The notes beneath the pieces were generated by a model, which was given only the letters and a program-made list of their open reading frames with translations, ran no database searches and was not told where the DNA came from. This document shows positions 44,923-56,096 of a DNA stretch of 64,000 nucleotides, piece by piece. Made by a program: the position numbers and the translations under genes. The stretch's first letter is position 1. Every line of letters begins with the position of its first letter. The stretch is from Rhodococcus zopfii NBRC 100606 = JCM 9919 (GTDB lineage: Bacteria > Actinomycetota > Actinomycetes > Mycobacteriales > Mycobacteriaceae), in contig NZ_BCXI01000029.1 of the NCBI RefSeq assembly GCF_001895025.1, positions 1 through 64,000 on the forward strand. Direction: 5' to 3'.

Positions 44923-45336
44923 GTTCTCCTCCATCGTTCCCGGCGGTAGCACCCTCACCTGCCGGGGCAGGGGGTTGCTGCGACGTCGTCGAGCCAGGTC
45001 TCTCGGTCGCTCTGGATGGTCGTCGCCGACGGTAGTGACCTCTCGATCCCCCGAACACCTTTTTCGTCAGCGCGATCGAAACCCCTCCCGGCGACACCGG
45101 CGGTCACCAACGGCGAGGGGCCCACGAGTACCCGTTGTGCGCAGGGCACCGATGGCGCCGCGGATCCGCGGCGCCACCGGGCGTGGAGACAAGTTCGAGT
45201 CGACTCAGACGCGAGAACCGGAGTGGGAGGTCGCGCGCGACGGATACCGGTCGAGGGGCTCTGGATGGTCGGTGCAGACGTCAGCGAGCCCGAAGATCCC
45301 GGAACACCGTCAACCTCACCGCGATCGAAAGTCCAT
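44923..45336. other. 414-bp spacer with an imperfect direct repeat
   Basis: No convincing gene. It holds two copies of a roughly 73-bp imperfect direct repeat (45009-45081 and 45258-45330) that share GCTCTGGATGGTCG, GAACACC and GCGATCGAAA at identical internal spacing. The promoter of the leader peptide operon must lie in the lower part, but no clear TANNNT element at the expected distance was found. A minus-strand frame of 64 codons (44955-45149) has no recognisable features. Confidence 0.5.
45009..45330. repeat. imperfect 73-bp direct repeat pair
   Basis: Copies at 45009-45081 and 45258-45330, offset 249 bp. Identical blocks of 14, 7 and 10 nt sit at the same relative positions. The second copy ends just past the stop of the HerA-like gene. 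They may be duplicated regulatory DNA or a footprint of an insertion. Confidence 0.55.
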
Positions 45337-48300
45337 CTACTCGTGCCGGATGGGTGCCGACGCGCGCGCCAGTTCGAGGACCTCTTCCTCGGTCGGCGGA
45401 CTCTTCGGGTGATAGGTCAGGCACAGCGGCGTCTGCGTCTTGCGGAATTCGGCCCCTTCGACGGCGGCGTAGAACTGCCCGGCGGGCAGCCGGCCGATAT
45501 CGGGTACCGTGCCGCCCTTCACCGCGGCCATCTCCTTCGCCGCGTCGATCTGGGCGGGGCTGTTGAGCAGGCCGTAGAACTGGGTCGCGGCGTTGCCCGG
45601 TATCCGGTTGTTCAGTCCTTTCGGCGCCTGCGTGGCGAACACGAGACCCAGACCGTACTTGCGTGCCTGGGAGGCGAGAGCCAGCGTGCTCTGCGTGCAC
45701 GCGGTGGTCTGGCCGGACGGCGCGAACGTCTGCGCCTCGTCCATCACGAACAGACCTCCCAGTGGTCGATCGCCGGCCGGGTTCTTCTTGATCCAGGCGA
45801 ACAACGCCATCTGCAGCTGGTTGACGAACCCCTGGCGCTGGGAATCCGAGGGCAATCCGGACAGGTTCACCACCGACACCCGGGCTCGGCGGCCCGGCGA
45901 CGGCGTCAGCAGCACGCCCGGATCCACCGCGGTGCCGATCCCGCCGAACATCGGGTCGGTGGCCATCGCGGCCTTGAGATTCTCGGCGAGGTCCGCGGCG
46001 ATCTTCTCGGCGTTCTTGAGATTGCTGATGTCCTCCGGGAGCTCTTCGAGGAGAGCAACGAAATCGTCCAGCCCACCGGATGATCCACGGCCGAAGTATT
46101 CGAGGGCCTGTTTGAGCACGGCCTGCGCCTTGCCTGCCGCGGCGGTCCGTCCGTCGGCCCTCGCTCTCGGTGCCAGCGCAGCGACGGCGGAGTCGATGGC
46201 CGCGCCGAACTCGTCCCGGTCGTCGACGACGCTCGGGAAGTCCGGGAGCGGCTGGAAGCTGAGCGGCAGGCCGTTGGACCGGCGCGGCGTCCAGACCAGC
46301 ACCTCGGTGTTGTTCAGGTAGTCGGCCGCCTTGATCTCGTCGCCCGGCGTCCAGCCGCGGGATCCGGCCGGCCACGGTGTGCCGAGCCGGGACAGGTCGT
46401 TGTTCGGATCGAGGATGATCGAGGACACCCCGTGGAGTGCACACTCCTCCACCAACCGGCGGATGAGCACGGTCTTCCCCGAACCGGACCCCGCGAAGAT
46501 CGCCGTGTGCTTGCGCAGCGCTTCGAGGGGGATCCGAACCTCGGTTCCGCCGGCGACAGCGGTACCGACCGGGATCGACGGGACCTCGACGGAGTCCGCC
46601 GGGCCGGCCTCCGGCTCGTCCACCACCGACGCATCCGGCAGCGCGGCCGATTCGGACGTTCCGGTGCCGGTCGCCGGGGCGGGCTCCGCCGCCGGTCCCG
46701 GCGATGCACCGTCGGCCCCGGCGACGTCCAGCGCCGCGCGGAACACACCGACCTCGTGCGCGGGCCGTCGACTCGCCAACCACTCGTCCAGCCTGTCCGG
46801 GTTCGCCTCCAGCAGACCGTGAAGTGCTGTCAGGGTTCGGATGTCGTCGCGTGACAGCGGCAGTGTCCGCCCGCCTGCCGCATCGAACGACGCGACGGTC
46901 GCCTGAGTCTTCGCGCCCCCGGACCACGGCTCGTTCCGCAGCAGGAACAGCCGACGTCGCGGCATGCTTCCGGCCAACCCGGCTGCGGTACATGCCTTCT
47001 GGATTCGATTCATCGACGCGACGGCGTTCGTCGACGACACCGCACGGAACGCCCAGTGTTCCTCGTCCTCGGTGGCGGCATCGAGAGTGCGCCGAAGCCG
47101 TGCGTGCAGAGCAGGTTTCGCGCCGGGCAGCGGATCGCGCTGGAATGCGCCGTCCGGTGCACCGGCTTCCCGGATCCACGCGTCGAGCCCCGCGGCGAGC
47201 AGCCGTGGCACGACCGTGTCCTCCGATCCGGCGTCGACGGCATCGTCCGCGGCGGCTCCGGCCACGAGCGCCTCGAACCGGGCATCGAGCGCGGTGAGGT
47301 CCACATCGCCGCTCACTCCCGGCGTCTCATCCGGTTCTTCGCCGACGGCCCGTCCGAAGTCGGTCATCTCGATCACCGAGTCACGATCGAGACAACGCCG
47401 GATGTGCGCGTCGACCTGTTTCAGGAGTTCGCGCGGGGTGATGTCCGGGGTGCCGGCCAGGGCAGCGTCCGTCACGGGCCAGGTCGGATACGGGGCCTCG
47501 AACCCGACGGAACCGTAACCCGACCGAAACCGCTTCTCCAGCAACGCGCGAGCGATGTCCGGTGTCGGCAGACCCTTCAACGGCCGGTCCACCCGGAACC
47601 GGTCGCGGACGGTCGCGGTGGCTCGGTCCTCGATCAACGCCCACGCCCCGGGTGTGCACGAGACCACCGAGACGGTTCGCTTCAGTGTCTCCCGCAACGA
47701 CATCAGTCCGTGCGCGATGTCCTCGAGCGCCGAATCGGCCGATGCTTCGGCGGAACCGCCCAGCGTCCGATGAGACTGCGCGATCAGGGTGTCGATCTGA
47801 TCCACGGCCAGGACGGTGGGGCCCGTCTCCGCGAGCAGCAGGGAGATGTCCCGCGCGATCTCCTGGGGAAGCGTCACTGCCGGACCGATCCCCCACCGGC
47901 TACGTTCGCCGGGAGACATCTCCTCGACGGACAGCAGGAACGACTCGCCGACGTCCTGCAGATCGAGATCGGCTGCCGCATACAGCGCCAGGGCGCGCGC
48001 CGTGCGGCGACACTGCCTCATCAGCTGGGGCCGGACCTTCGCCAGGGCCATGACGAAGTCGTCCAGCACAGTCCTGTCCAGCACGGCGTCGCCGACGATC
48101 GCGCGGCGCTGCGCCCGCGTGATGTGGGCGATCGTGGCGAGCCGCCACAGCAACAGCCGGAGCTGGGTACCGTGCTCGGATGCCGGCCGCCCGAGATTGT
48201 CGAGCATCCCGACGACGGTCGAGCGCCAGAAGTCCGACGCGTCGATGAGCCCGATCAGGAAGAAGTACCCGTCCTCGCTCTGCACCCGCTCACGAACGTG

Positions 48301-48570
48301 CCCCAGCAGGTGAGTCTTCCCGGAGCCGGCCTGTCCTCGCACCACGACACCGAGGGGGCTCGCCGACGGGCTGTTCCGCGCGTCGTCGAACGCACTCATC
48401 ACGGTGCCGATCACCGGGTCGTGCAGTCCCGGCACGTGCAGGTCGGCCTGCGGCTGCCACACGTCGTCCGGCGTCGGCGCCCACGACAGACGGATCGAGG
48501 CGAGTGCGCGGCGCTCGTCGTCGGTCGCGCGCTGCACGGGCTCGGACGTGGCCTGTATCAGCTCTGTCAC
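45337..48570 (-). CDS. double P-loop ATPase with HerA-like C-terminal module
   Basis: 1077-residue protein. An N-terminal AAA/ORC-like ATPase has Walker A GQAGSGKT (79-86) and Walker B VLAVDQID (253-260). A middle region of about 200 residues has no known motif (contains WAFRAVSSTNAVASMNRIQK and an acidic Ala/Pro linker at 615-665). The C-terminal part (about 675-1077) is HerA/DUF87-like, with Walker A GSGSGKT (694-700), DPNNDLSRLG, Walker B FVMDEAQTF (941-949) and an arginine/sensor region LVFATQAPKGLNNRI. Such HerA-family pumps translocate DNA. GTG start overlapping the previous stop; last gene of a three-gene unit with the winged-helix and DUF559 proteins. No named system recognised. Confidence 0.82.
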   Translation of the reverse strand: MTELIQATSEPVQRATDDERRALASIRLSWAPTPDDVWQPQADLHVPGLHDPVIGTVMSAFDDARNSPSASPLGVVVRGQAGSGKTHLLGHVRERVQSEDGYFFLIGLIDASDFWRSTVVGMLDNLGRPASEHGTQLRLLLWRLATIAHITRAQRRAIVGDAVLDRTVLDDFVMALAKVRPQLMRQCRRTARALALYAAADLDLQDVGESFLLSVEEMSPGERSRWGIGPAVTLPQEIARDISLLLAETGPTVLAVDQIDTLIAQSHRTLGGSAEASADSALEDIAHGLMSLRETLKRTVSVVSCTPGAWALIEDRATATVRDRFRVDRPLKGLPTPDIARALLEKRFRSGYGSVGFEAPYPTWPVTDAALAGTPDITPRELLKQVDAHIRRCLDRDSVIEMTDFGRAVGEEPDETPGVSGDVDLTALDARFEALVAGAAADDAVDAGSEDTVVPRLLAAGLDAWIREAGAPDGAFQRDPLPGAKPALHARLRRTLDAATEDEEHWAFRAVSSTNAVASMNRIQKACTAAGLAGSMPRRRLFLLRNEPWSGGAKTQATVASFDAAGGRTLPLSRDDIRTLTALHGLLEANPDRLDEWLASRRPAHEVGVFRAALDVAGADGASPGPAAEPAPATGTGTSESAALPDASVVDEPEAGPADSVEVPSIPVGTAVAGGTEVRIPLEALRKHTAIFAGSGSGKTVLIRRLVEECALHGVSSIILDPNNDLSRLGTPWPAGSRGWTPGDEIKAADYLNNTEVLVWTPRRSNGLPLSFQPLPDFPSVVDDRDEFGAAIDSAVAALAPRARADGRTAAAGKAQAVLKQALEYFGRGSSGGLDDFVALLEELPEDISNLKNAEKIAADLAENLKAAMATDPMFGGIGTAVDPGVLLTPSPGRRARVSVVNLSGLPSDSQRQGFVNQLQMALFAWIKKNPAGDRPLGGLFVMDEAQTFAPSGQTTACTQSTLALASQARKYGLGLVFATQAPKGLNNRIPGNAATQFYGLLNSPAQIDAAKEMAAVKGGTVPDIGRLPAGQFYAAVEGAEFRKTQTPLCLTYHPKSPPTEEEVLELARASAPIRHE

Positions 48571-49217
48571 TGCGCCTCGATCGCGATGGCGTGGTTGTTC
48601 TGGAAGCCGATCACCACGGCCGCGGCCCGGTCCCGTTCGGTGAGTGCCTTCTGGTTCTCCTCCGGAACGAGGACGACATCCGGCAGCCGGTACATCCGTG
48701 CCAGTTCACGGTCGAGTTCGTCCCTCGGCACGTCGGCCAGCACCTCGCGCAGGTCGGTCAGGCGCACCCACGCTCCCGGCCGTTCCGCCAGCCGCGTATA
48801 CGCGATGCGGACACGATCCTCGACCGCACCGGATTCGGCGGTTCCCACGGGCGCCGAATCGGTGGCCGTCCCCGCCGGCAGGAACACGTCGGACGGACGC
48901 AGATCAGCACGGTCGAAGTACCGGCGCATCGCCGCGAGCATCGTGTAGAGCGTGCGGCCGTACGGGCCCGCTTTCGGCGGCGCCGCCGAACCGATCTCCT
49001 GGTAGCACCGTGCCCAGCCGCCGTCGGCCAGCACGTGCGTGTAGGGACGGCCGCTGGTGTCGGTCTCGATCAGTCCCAGCCGGTTCAGCTTCTTGCGGCT
49101 GTCCGGCCGCAGCTCCGGCCCGAGGGTCTTCAGTTCGGGGTTGGGCACCGGACGTGACTCGGCCATCAAGGCGAGCAGCACCAGGATCTCGCTCGCCGTC
49201 AGATCGTCTGCACTCAC
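48567..49217 (-). CDS. winged-helix-like partner protein
   Basis: 216 residues. The N-terminus (LTASEILVLLALMAES... through KLNRLGLIET) has the spacing of a winged-helix DNA-binding domain. A second helix-rich region (about 130-185: EDRVRIAYTRLAERPGAWVRLTDL, DELDRELARMYR) looks like another. No catalytic motif. It is joined by 4-nt GTGA overlaps to the DUF559 gene before it and the HerA-like gene after it, so the three products are presumably made in fixed proportion and act together. Confidence 0.65.
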   Translation of the reverse strand: MSADDLTASEILVLLALMAESRPVPNPELKTLGPELRPDSRKKLNRLGLIETDTSGRPYTHVLADGGWARCYQEIGSAAPPKAGPYGRTLYTMLAAMRRYFDRADLRPSDVFLPAGTATDSAPVGTAESGAVEDRVRIAYTRLAERPGAWVRLTDLREVLADVPRDELDRELARMYRLPDVVLVPEENQKALTERDRAAAVVIGFQNNHAIAIEAQ

Positions 49218-50335
49218 CGTGTACTGCCCTCCGTCGCCGACCTGGTCGATCCCGTCTCACGGCGTCGGCCGCGGACATACCCTTCGATGGCGGCCACGAC
49301 CGCCGAGACGTCGTCGAGGACGTGCTCGTTGGTGAACCGCAGCACCGCGTAGCCGTCGAGCTGAAGCCGGACGTCGCGCCGCCGATCGGCAGCGTACTTG
49401 GCGGGCATCCGATGGTCGTCGCCGTCCACCTCCACGACGCATCGGGCGTCCGGCCACATCAGGTCGACACAGATCGGCGCACGCAGCGGATCCGGCTGAT
49501 AGATCGTGTTCCACCGGCCGCCGCGGGCCCAGTCGCAGTCCTGCAGAGCCGCATCCAGCTTCTTCTCCGCGGCGCTGCCCGGGTGCGGTCGCCCGGCGAG
49601 CGCCGGGTACCGCAGCCGGACCGGCTCCGGCGAATGCGGCGACGACTCGCCGTGCGCGACCGTTCCGGTTCGTGTCCCCGGCAGCACGGTGACCGTGGTG
49701 AACCGATCGATCGCGGGGATCGCCGACGTGGCCACCGCGATCCCGATACGGCCTTGCACGGCAAGCCATTCGCACGCGGCCGCGAGCACGTGTTGATCGT
49801 CCACCGGCAGGTCCGGCGGCGCCGTGACGACGAGCACGGTGTGCGATCGCCGATAGCCGGTCGCGAGGACCCGGGCGAGACCCGCCGCCCTGGTCTCCCG
49901 GGCGTACCGGGACGGATCGAGGCGGGTGCCACGTACCGCCGCCTCGGCGAGGGCGGCGACGAACGGTCCGAAGTGACGGCTGGTCGCTGCCAACCGCTTC
50001 GCCAGTACCCGGACCGCCGCGACATCGAGCAGGGTCCGGCCGTCGATGTCCGCGCCGCCGGGCAACCAGGCCGGGAACAGGTTCAACGCGGCGGCTTCGA
50101 GGTCGTCGAGGATCCCCGCGACGATTTCCGCTGCGGAATCCGTCCCGCCGATGTGGCACACGAGAACGGCCGGTGCATCCTGCGTCTGCGGATCGAGAAC
50201 GGCAGCGATGTCCGCCGTCGGGTGATTCACACACACGACCCGACCGGCCGGCACATCCGCCGGCCACCGGGCCGGCTCCCCCTCGGACTGCATCGGGACG
50301 GCACCGGTCGTCCCCGTTCGTATCGTTCTTGTCAC
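49214..50335 (-). CDS. DUF559/Vsr-like nuclease-fold protein
   Basis: 373 residues. Residues 1-250 form a domain I do not recognise (contains VVCVNHPTADIAAVLDPQ and AAALNLFPAWLPGG). The C-terminal 100 residues match the DUF559/Vsr endonuclease fold of the PD-(D/E)xK superfamily: AAEKKLDAAL (Glu257), ICVDLMWPDARCVVEVDG (Asp291, Glu302, Asp304), KYAADRRRDVRLQLDGYAVLRF and TNEHVLDD. All expected catalytic acids are present, so it should be an active nuclease or nickase. GTG 50335 is the likely start (ATG 50293 is the alternative). It is the first gene of the three-gene unit; a TAGGGT at 50373-50378 (minus) is a possible -10. Confidence 0.75.
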   Translation of the reverse strand: MTRTIRTGTTGAVPMQSEGEPARWPADVPAGRVVCVNHPTADIAAVLDPQTQDAPAVLVCHIGGTDSAAEIVAGILDDLEAAALNLFPAWLPGGADIDGRTLLDVAAVRVLAKRLAATSRHFGPFVAALAEAAVRGTRLDPSRYARETRAAGLARVLATGYRRSHTVLVVTAPPDLPVDDQHVLAAACEWLAVQGRIGIAVATSAIPAIDRFTTVTVLPGTRTGTVAHGESSPHSPEPVRLRYPALAGRPHPGSAAEKKLDAALQDCDWARGGRWNTIYQPDPLRAPICVDLMWPDARCVVEVDGDDHRMPAKYAADRRRDVRLQLDGYAVLRFTNEHVLDDVSAVVAAIEGYVRGRRRETGSTRSATEGSTR

Positions 50336-50372
50336 CTATGCGGTCCTGATCCCCATCCACAACGTCACGCGC

Positions 50373-50378
50373 ACCCTA
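50373..50378 (-). promoter_or_regulatory. possible -10 element of the nuclease-ATPase operon
   Basis: Minus-strand TAGGGT about 38 nt upstream of the first gene, the same hexamer as in the pta promoter. The -35 region is unclear. The 199-bp spacer between this operon and the acetyltransferase gene (50336-50534) otherwise shows only a doubtful 40-codon Arg-rich frame. Confidence 0.4.
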
Positions 50379-50534
50379 TCGTCGGCGCGATCGGCGACGT
50401 TTCAGGCGGAGGCCTCGGCGGCCCACGATATCGCGGCGGCGCGCTCGGACAGCAGGGACACCGTCGGGCAGGTCTCGGATCGGTTCGAGCGTGGTCACAG
50501 CGGTACCGCCGCGAGCCGTGCGGGCAAGACCCGA

Positions 50535-55322: not shown

Positions 55323-56096
55323 GTGACTGCGTTCGAACTGTTCCTCGTCGCCCTGGCCGGTCTGGGAGCCGGCGCAATCAACGCACTCGTCGGCTCCGGC
55401 ACCCTCATCACCTTCCCGACTCTCGTGGCGTTCGGGTTGCCGCCGGTGACTGCGACGATGTCGAATGCGGTCGGGCTCGTCGCCGGTGGCGTGTCGAGCA
55501 CGTGGGGATATCGGCGCGAATTGCGTGGGCAGTGGCTGCGATTGCGCTGGCAGATTCCGGCCTCGCTGTCCGGCGCGGTGCTGGGATCGTGGCTGCTGTT
55601 GCACCTGCCGGAGTCGGCATTCGAAACGATCGTGCCCGTTCTCATGGTGCTCGCACTGATCCTCGTTGTGCTGCAACCGAAACTGCAGAAATGGGTGCTG
55701 AATCGGGCCGGTGGGACCGGCGACGACCGCATCGGGCCGGTACGGATGACGATTCTCGTCGCGGGCACCTTCGCCGTCGGCGTGTACGGCGGCTATTTCA
55801 CTGCGGCACAGGGCATTCTGCTCATGGGACTGTTCGGTGCGCTCCTGCACGACAACGTCCAGCGACAGAACGCGGCGAAGAACCTGCTCTCCCTGTTGGT
55901 GAACATCGTCTCCGCCACCGCGTACACCCTCGTCGCGTTCGACCGGATCAACTGGACGGTCGCCGGGCTCATCGCCGCGGGCTCGTTGATCGGCGGCGCG
56001 CTGGGCTCACGCTACGGTCGTCGCCTGTCCCCCACGGCGCTGCGCGGCACCATCGTCGTCGTCGGCCTGATCGGCCTCTACCGACTGCTCGCGTGA
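55323..56096 (+). CDS. TauE/SafE-family sulfite or organosulfonate exporter-like protein
   Basis: 257-residue membrane protein with about eight helices. TauE features: ALAGLGAGAINALVGSGTLITFPTLVAFGLPPV at the N-terminus (first half-repeat, quoted as AGAINALVGSGTLITFP) and GVYGGYFTAAQGILLMGLFGALLH in the second half. Members export sulfite, taurine-derived or related anions. It diverges from the cysteine-leader operon, consistent with a sulfur role (Bacillus YtnM belongs to this family). Leaderless GTG start. Confidence 0.85.
   Translation: MTAFELFLVALAGLGAGAINALVGSGTLITFPTLVAFGLPPVTATMSNAVGLVAGGVSSTWGYRRELRGQWLRLRWQIPASLSGAVLGSWLLLHLPESAFETIVPVLMVLALILVVLQPKLQKWVLNRAGGTGDDRIGPVRMTILVAGTFAVGVYGGYFTAAQGILLMGLFGALLHDNVQRQNAAKNLLSLLVNIVSATAYTLVAFDRINWTVAGLIAAGSLIGGALGSRYGRRLSPTALRGTIVVVGLIGLYRLLA

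Follow-up and report, generated by a model that had tools for sequence, protein, structure and literature searches.

We analyzed a stretch of 64,000 nucleotides from Rhodococcus zopfii (the window; its genome of 6.3 Mb is G000, and other genomes and loci are referred to by G- and L-numbers, respectively). On the minus strand of this window, three genes located between positions 45337 and 50335 encode a DUF559 nuclease (gene 1), a probable winged-helix protein (gene 2), and a double ATPase with a HerA motor (gene 3). Judged by comparison across genomes, these genes are a real, conserved, and accessory system of soil bacteria. We think that this system is probably directed against invading phages or plasmids and probably of the kind predicted as HerA/FtsK capture (Rakesh, Aravind and Krishnan 2024, PMC10853773). 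This interpretation is based on the coupling of the genes, their intact active sites and correlated divergence, their patchy distribution with gains and losses, and the exchange of the nuclease for other partners, likely of an immune type, in two clades.

Coupling and conservation of the three genes

Both gene junctions consist of a four-nucleotide overlap (GTGA), and the coordinates of the open reading frames (ORFs) likewise agree with a preliminary description of this DNA, in which three minus-strand genes were joined by such overlaps. The G+C content of the genes (0.68–0.71) is similar to that of the flanks (0.65–0.72). We scanned 84,980 species genomes with peptides of gene 3 as seeds, which limits the search to fairly close relatives, and obtained 87 stretches; the 80 best were retained and represent 79 loci. 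By name, these belong to Actinomycetota, plus one metagenome-assembled genome of Desulfobacterium. Using tblastn at a threshold of 1e-3, gene 2 was found in all 79 loci and gene 1 in 64, and homologues of all three genes occur together in 64 of the 79. The G+C-rich loci L091 and L092 both contain the complete set, with gene 2 of L091 detected only at E 6e-4. Junctions are tight wherever the genes were called: gene 2 and gene 3 lie within 3 nucleotides of each other in 75 of 75 pairs (exactly four overlapping nucleotides in 57), and the nuclease gene overlaps gene 2 by exactly four nucleotides in 33 of 52. Because the homologues recur together and are joined this closely, the association is not due to chance.

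For residue conservation, we compared the called genes including those of the window, leaving out L015, which has two copies, and L078, where the motor was not called. The Walker, sensor, and nuclease catalytic residues show no variation in 78 motors and 56 nucleases. The motor is the slowest-changing part (mean distance 0.48, compared with 0.61 and 0.62). Among 28 dereplicated loci out of 52, pairwise distances of the motor correlate with those of the nuclease (r 0.86) and of the winged-helix protein (r 0.78), and none of 2000 permutations reached either value; such correlated divergence can come from shared vertical descent alone and does not separate this from a common function. In Pseudonocardia humida (L078:10001-13250), the motor is not a single called ORF and only its C-terminal part was recovered, so that either the gene or the assembly may be broken.

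Domain architecture

Gene 1 matches the Pfam family DUF559 well above the cut-off (E 3.4e-11; 43.4 bits versus 20.6), and its nuclease part also matches the PDB entry 3hrl_A (E 1.9e-12). Asp291, Glu302, Asp304, and His308 are invariant in all 56 nuclease rows. By family match and acidic active-site residues, the predicted product is a DUF559-type PD-(D/E)xK nuclease, as had been proposed with its intact acids in the preliminary description. The sole PADLOC match of gene 1 is DpdF (E 0.027).

For gene 2, no Pfam match above cut-off and nothing in PADLOC was obtained. Its earlier designation as a winged-helix adaptor is weakly supported as far as the fold is concerned: among 40 members of its family, the winged helix of DUF6293_C matches four (best E 0.0029) and HTH_27 also four (best E 0.086), and a winged-helix structure in the PDB matches profile positions 4–79 (E 0.0011). 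Calmodulin structures, which we judged to be spurious matches, outrank this winged-helix structure. From the sequence pattern, a second winged helix may be present at the C terminus (about residues 130–216). We also considered a kinship with DndG or SspB and dropped it, because neither family is among the PADLOC matches of the 40 members.

Gene 3 combines two P-loop ATPase modules, the second of them HerA-like, as the preliminary description had stated. Its N-terminal half matches AAA_22 (residues 75–152; E 4.6e-7, 30.6 bits versus a cut-off of 27). A model of orc1/cdc6 reaches only E 0.25 with this half, and the PDB matches are weak and of a generic AAA type. The C-terminal half matches HerA/DUF87 (residues 667–918; E 8.9e-13, 49.3 bits versus 23.2), and four of six solved relatives found by sequence are named HerA, the best being 4d2i. 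In PADLOC, the motor best matches mad8 (4.8e-20) and also the type III-coevolved HerA (2.6e-15). All 78 rows share Lys85/Thr86, Asp257/Asp260, and Arg324 in the AAA+ half and Lys699/Thr700, Asp944/Glu945, Arg970, and Gln981 in the HerA motor, which include Lys85 and Lys699 singled out earlier together with the nuclease residues Glu302 and Asp304. None of the three proteins scores above its cut-off in NCBIfam.

The two ATPases are separated by a middle domain of 195 residues, for which neither a Pfam match nor a credible PDB or profile match was found. From the alignment, we read it as helix-strand-strand-strand-helix-strand without a visible ExK motif, which would fit a candidate inactive restriction endonuclease (REase). 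A relation to the DUF559 domain was not found by hhalign, and no winged helix-turn-helix (wHTH) was identified after this domain in gene 3.

Distribution, gain, and loss

The system is patchy rather than universally conserved, the latter being what would have refuted the preliminary description. Within the genus, 5 of 18 genomes carry it (counting that of the window), four with a full-length match and one with a fragmented match in an assembly that is 75% complete; the remaining matches, with which the tally is 14 of 18, are weak and concern the motor only. At E 1e-60, 84 of 301 sampled genomes of the family match, representing 9 of 31 genera, and 217 do not. The corresponding number for the phylum sample is 6 of 396 (both counts include the window genome), and in the phylum of Desulfobacterium 4 of 297 sampled genomes match, the query's own included.

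Related genomes document the absence of the genes from this very site. In G015, the match to the window ends at position 45020 and resumes at 50401, the two parts being separated by 83 bp; the missing block therefore corresponds to the three genes (5.4 kb). The matches directly beside the insert are short (48 and 61 bp), and those further out exceed 2 kb. The flanks are about 1.16 kb apart in G008, G014, and G016 and not 5.5–5.7 kb, whereas G001 has 4.3 kb with other genes at this position. G015 itself carries about 0.7 kb of its own sequence at this variable site, where small ORFs (L093:2738-3319) look like what we take to be a decayed TnpB-type gene. G004 has retained a 268-bp remnant of the motor gene (90% identical) at the site of the window and an intact copy (66% identical) on another contig. 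Two divergent motor copies from different clades lie in tandem in L015 (2363–5551 and 6436–9579), at the ribosomal junction described below. Two motor matches per genome, on one or two contigs, were also seen in G756, G919, G940, and G964, and in G756 and G964 one of the two is either shorter or fragmented.

An alternative explanation is that the genes serve a mobile element, in segregation, transfer, or the exclusion of competing plasmids, and have been domesticated on the chromosome. A Methylobacterium plasmid record carries the system, on a megaplasmid typed as mobilizable, and HerA/FtsK motors do occur in such elements according to the passages of PMC10853773 that deal with them. However, the other two of the three matching "plasmid" records look chromosomal (one has 11.85 Mb, the other contains a ribosomal operon), the extra block relative to G015 consists of the three genes with no others called inside, and no recombinase or transposase model of Pfam scores above cut-off among them. 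We therefore regard a housekeeping function for mobile elements as quite unlikely.

Exchange of the nuclease for other partners

Sorted by partner, 64 of the 79 loci have the nuclease. In 6 loci its position is taken by a STAND-like protein, 7 loci have a divergent WD40 gene instead, and the remaining 2 have none of these. Because the partners vary, we consider the winged-helix/motor pair to be the core and the nuclease to be its commonest partner.

In L041, L046, L049, L054, L056, and L064, a protein of 615–743 amino acids replaces the nuclease. A P-loop can be read by eye in these proteins. Of three members scanned, two gave weak TPR matches, one of these also a weak HTH match and nSTAND3 at E 0.076, and the third gave nothing; the label "STAND-like" is thus partly our own reading of the sequence. 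The second set (L018, L021, L023, L024, L031, L065, and L067) carries a gene for 1291–1407 amino acids instead, and WD40 repeats were found in both members scanned. In the N-terminal sequence of the L018 protein, we see a likeness to a trypsin-like protease and, downstream of it, to a STAND NTPase. Counted over the called genes within about 10 kb on each side, only gene 2, gene 3, and the partner are common to all seven loci. The next most frequent gene clusters occur in four and three of them, and the member from L018 of the former is a Trypco1 protein (2.5e-18).

In the tree, each partner set is a single clade nested among nuclease-bearing rows, with support in the Shimodaira–Hasegawa-like approximate likelihood ratio test (SH-aLRT) of 99/98 with L077 and 99/97 without it, which therefore indicates two partner changes and not thirteen. 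The nuclease appears to be the older state, based on this nesting and on its presence in L077 in a tree that is unrooted. A homology of gene 1 to either replacement was not detected by hhalign; since the partner sets are small, this negative result means little.

Comparison with known systems

No named system corresponds to this gene set in PADLOC 2.0.0 (2023), in which only domain-level matches occur, and a named defense system was rejected on this basis. In this respect the earlier statement that the combination matches no known system holds; taken literally it is not supported, since the general kind was predicted in 2024: PMC10853773 describes, in the part devoted to them, HerA/FtsK capture systems as mobile neighborhoods of an Orc/CDC6 AAA+ protein, an active and an inactive REase, HerA/FtsK, and a wHTH. 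Interception of the DNA of invaders is the role proposed there for the motor. In the Orc/CDC6 type, as outlined there, the inactive REase is inserted between the AAA+ core and its C-terminal wHTH, and the active REase belongs to one of two families. PMC12839542 restates the prediction in its corresponding section and adds BREX-Related Capture (BRC) systems. The cassette shares with the description in PMC10853773 the AAA+ ATPase, the HerA/FtsK motor, a probable winged helix, and an REase in one neighborhood, for which varied arrangements and partners are given. Unlike the systems in those passages, it fuses AAA+ and HerA in one chain with the middle domain and uses a DUF559 nuclease, a family that does not occur in the main texts of the two papers. 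By its DUF87 match, invariant Walker residues, Arg970, and Gln981, the predicted motor is of the HerA/FtsK type that characterizes the capture class. Overall, the deduced architecture resembles that class and would be a variant of the predicted kind. No system combining DUF559 and HerA was found among 5.39 million open-licence papers without supplements, so that the exact arrangement may already be in print.

Other systems are related in part. The motor half has its best PADLOC match in mad8, a component of MADS; unlike MADS, the cassette has no methylase, none of the mad models matches gene 1 or gene 2, gene 3 matches only mad8, and membership was rejected since the multi-gene methylation-based set is missing. 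SIR2-HerA, DUF4297-HerA, and the HerA families of PADLOC combine a HerA motor with a partner enzyme as the cassette does, but the cassette differs by its winged-helix gene and an additional AAA+ half. The HerA models in PADLOC match the motor at about 54 bits or less, and neither SIR2 nor DUF4297 is among the matches listed for the three proteins; we therefore rejected this assignment, too. BRC systems, in the sections of PMC12839542 on their components, are partly similar in having HerA/FtsK, Orc/Cdc6 AAA+, STAND, and wHTH-type components; none of PglZ, DUF6079, DUF4007, or TGT is among the matches listed for the cassette. The divergent partner of the seven WD40 loci looks like the trypsin/Trypco conflict systems of Kaur et al. 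(2020, PMC7159879), to which the Trypco1 match in L018 also points. The window's own locus differs in having no such gene, and in the text of PMC7159879 available HerA appears in a reference only, while FtsK-type domains occur rarely and are described as inactive.

A HerA motor and a nuclease sharing an operon are also what a unit for DNA-end processing or repair would look like, in which the motor supplies the nuclease with broken ends as in HerA-NurA. Pfam and NCBIfam models do assign the motor to the HerA group, and its best solved relative is a HerA. Nevertheless, the NCBIfam equivalog for HerA in repair reaches 35 bits where 800 are required, NurA is not among the matches listed for the three proteins (HerA-NurA membership was rejected accordingly), the nuclease is absent from 15 of the 79 loci, and the genes are patchy, gained, and lost, unlike a core repair unit. 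A role in repair is thus rather unlikely.

Association with a ribosomal junction

Genes of the rplP-rpsQ/rplN-rplX junction are present in the examined stretch of 31 of the 79 loci. Where both rpsQ and rplN were found, the system lies between them (22 of 22 loci), and the annotation of Tsukamurella places it there as well. The rpsQ/rplN junction of the S10/spc operons is an accessory-gene site in Nocardiaceae, Tsukamurella, and their kin. This position could suggest a conserved actinobacterial regulator or a unit of chromosome dynamics tied to the ribosomal locus. Since the other loci show varied contexts and 217 of the 301 family genomes have no match, we consider this explanation very improbable; a fixed syntenic place, which would have refuted the preliminary description, is not seen. 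In L090, VapBC and a DEAD/DEAH helicase are further genes at the rpsQ/rplN junction. A record named "Kitasatospora arboriphila" is very close to Williamsia muralis at the same junction (L053/L048) and is perhaps mislabelled or a mixed assembly.

Proposed function

If the system acts as an anti-invader device of the capture kind, the winged-helix protein would recognize some feature in the DNA of an incoming phage or plasmid, and on this DNA the AAA+ half of gene 3 would then assemble the complex. The HerA half would form a ring motor pumping the duplex, and the DUF559 nuclease, docked via its N-terminal part, would cut the pumped DNA. The predicted class would thereby gain a compact member of three genes, which lends itself to cloning and structural work in laboratory actinobacteria.

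A number of observations weigh against such a function. The three-gene set contains no DNA-modification enzyme to mark self. L028 and L078 have neither the nuclease nor one of the other partners, and L114–L116 from the phylum of Desulfobacterium look like two-gene loci in a profile search of called ORFs. The ribosomal-junction site in Rhodococcoides and its kin looks stable rather than freely mobile. None of 50,697 phage records gave a match, and four matches in IMG/VR are HerA-domain relatives with 26–30% identity; phage carriage is therefore unsupported, and we dropped the idea of a phage-borne system. As neighbors, we collected up to two genes per side from 45 chosen loci, excluding ribosomal and system genes as well as proteins of more than 700 or fewer than 60 amino acids (hence no WD40 partner). 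Of the resulting 145 genes, six were dropped (two genes of the Trypco1 cluster, the motor fragment of L078, single genes from L011 and from L015, and an ORF in L050 for 570 amino acids). The remaining 139 gave 10 PADLOC matches at E 1e-10 to six mixed families, with one protein possibly counted twice, and in comparison with no control rate an enrichment of defense genes among them was not shown; a location in defense islands was dropped for this reason. Matches to MADS models among these neighbors are two to mad2 and one to mad3; two further searches did not recover the neighbors concerned. The 25 Pfam families listed out of 132 are mostly unrelated, with TerD and AIM24 counted six times each and a death-like domain twice.

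The partner changes leave room for a broader, more tentative proposal. Possibly, the cassette is one version of a modular immune platform, in which a constant capture core of winged helix, AAA+, and HerA passes invader DNA or a signal to interchangeable effectors. Besides the DUF559 nuclease, these might be the STAND/TPR-like protein and the trypsin-like/STAND/WD40 protein together with Trypco1. A single sensor-motor could then drive the destruction of DNA in some bacteria, whereas in other bacteria the response would be protein-based or suicidal. In that case, the natural partner changes would separate the sensor-motor part from the effector part.

Genomic context and feature coordinates

On one side, the three genes are flanked by an oligopeptide-type ABC transporter and a luciferase-like monooxygenase. 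The other flank contains genes for an FAD oxidoreductase, a GNAT protein, a TauE sulfite exporter, and an ABC transporter whose solute-binding protein is of family 3. The preliminary description had seen an insert between two sulfur-related operons; the accessory insert is supported, but the label of the flanks is less exact. All features are compiled in Table 1.

Table 1. Coordinates of the cassette, its domains, and related loci (window positions unless a locus is given)
Feature	Position	Strand	Remarks
Gene 1	49214..50335	-	373 aa; N-terminal part and C-terminal DUF559 PD-(D/E)xK nuclease; start codon tentative
DUF559 domain of gene 1, residues 289-351	49283..49471	-	Pfam; conserved residues
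Gene 2	48567..49217	-	216 aa; probable winged-helix protein
Gene 3	45337..48570	-	1077-aa double ATPase
AAA+ ATPase of gene 3, N-terminal, about residues 60-420	47311..48393	-	Pfam and invariant residues
Middle domain of gene 3, residues 428-622	46705..47289	-	candidate inactive REase
HerA motor of gene 3, about residues 660-1070	45361..46593	-	Pfam, PADLOC, solved relatives, invariant residues
Block missing from relative G015	45021..50400		flanking matches 83 bp apart in G015
22 rpsQ/rplN loci	L005, L006, L007, L009-L016, L020, L026, L029, L032, L037, L045, L051, L057, L070, L072, L076		system between rpsQ and rplN
Divergent WD40 gene	L018:4616-9008, similar in L021, L023, L024, L031, L065, L067		beside winged-helix/motor pair

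The gene of the TauE/SafE sulfite-exporter family near the insert is located at 55323–56096 of the window. A second, more distant form of the system was seen in genome G632 (L117:7298-11825), which has a nuclease-like gene, a winged-helix gene, and a shorter motor gene.

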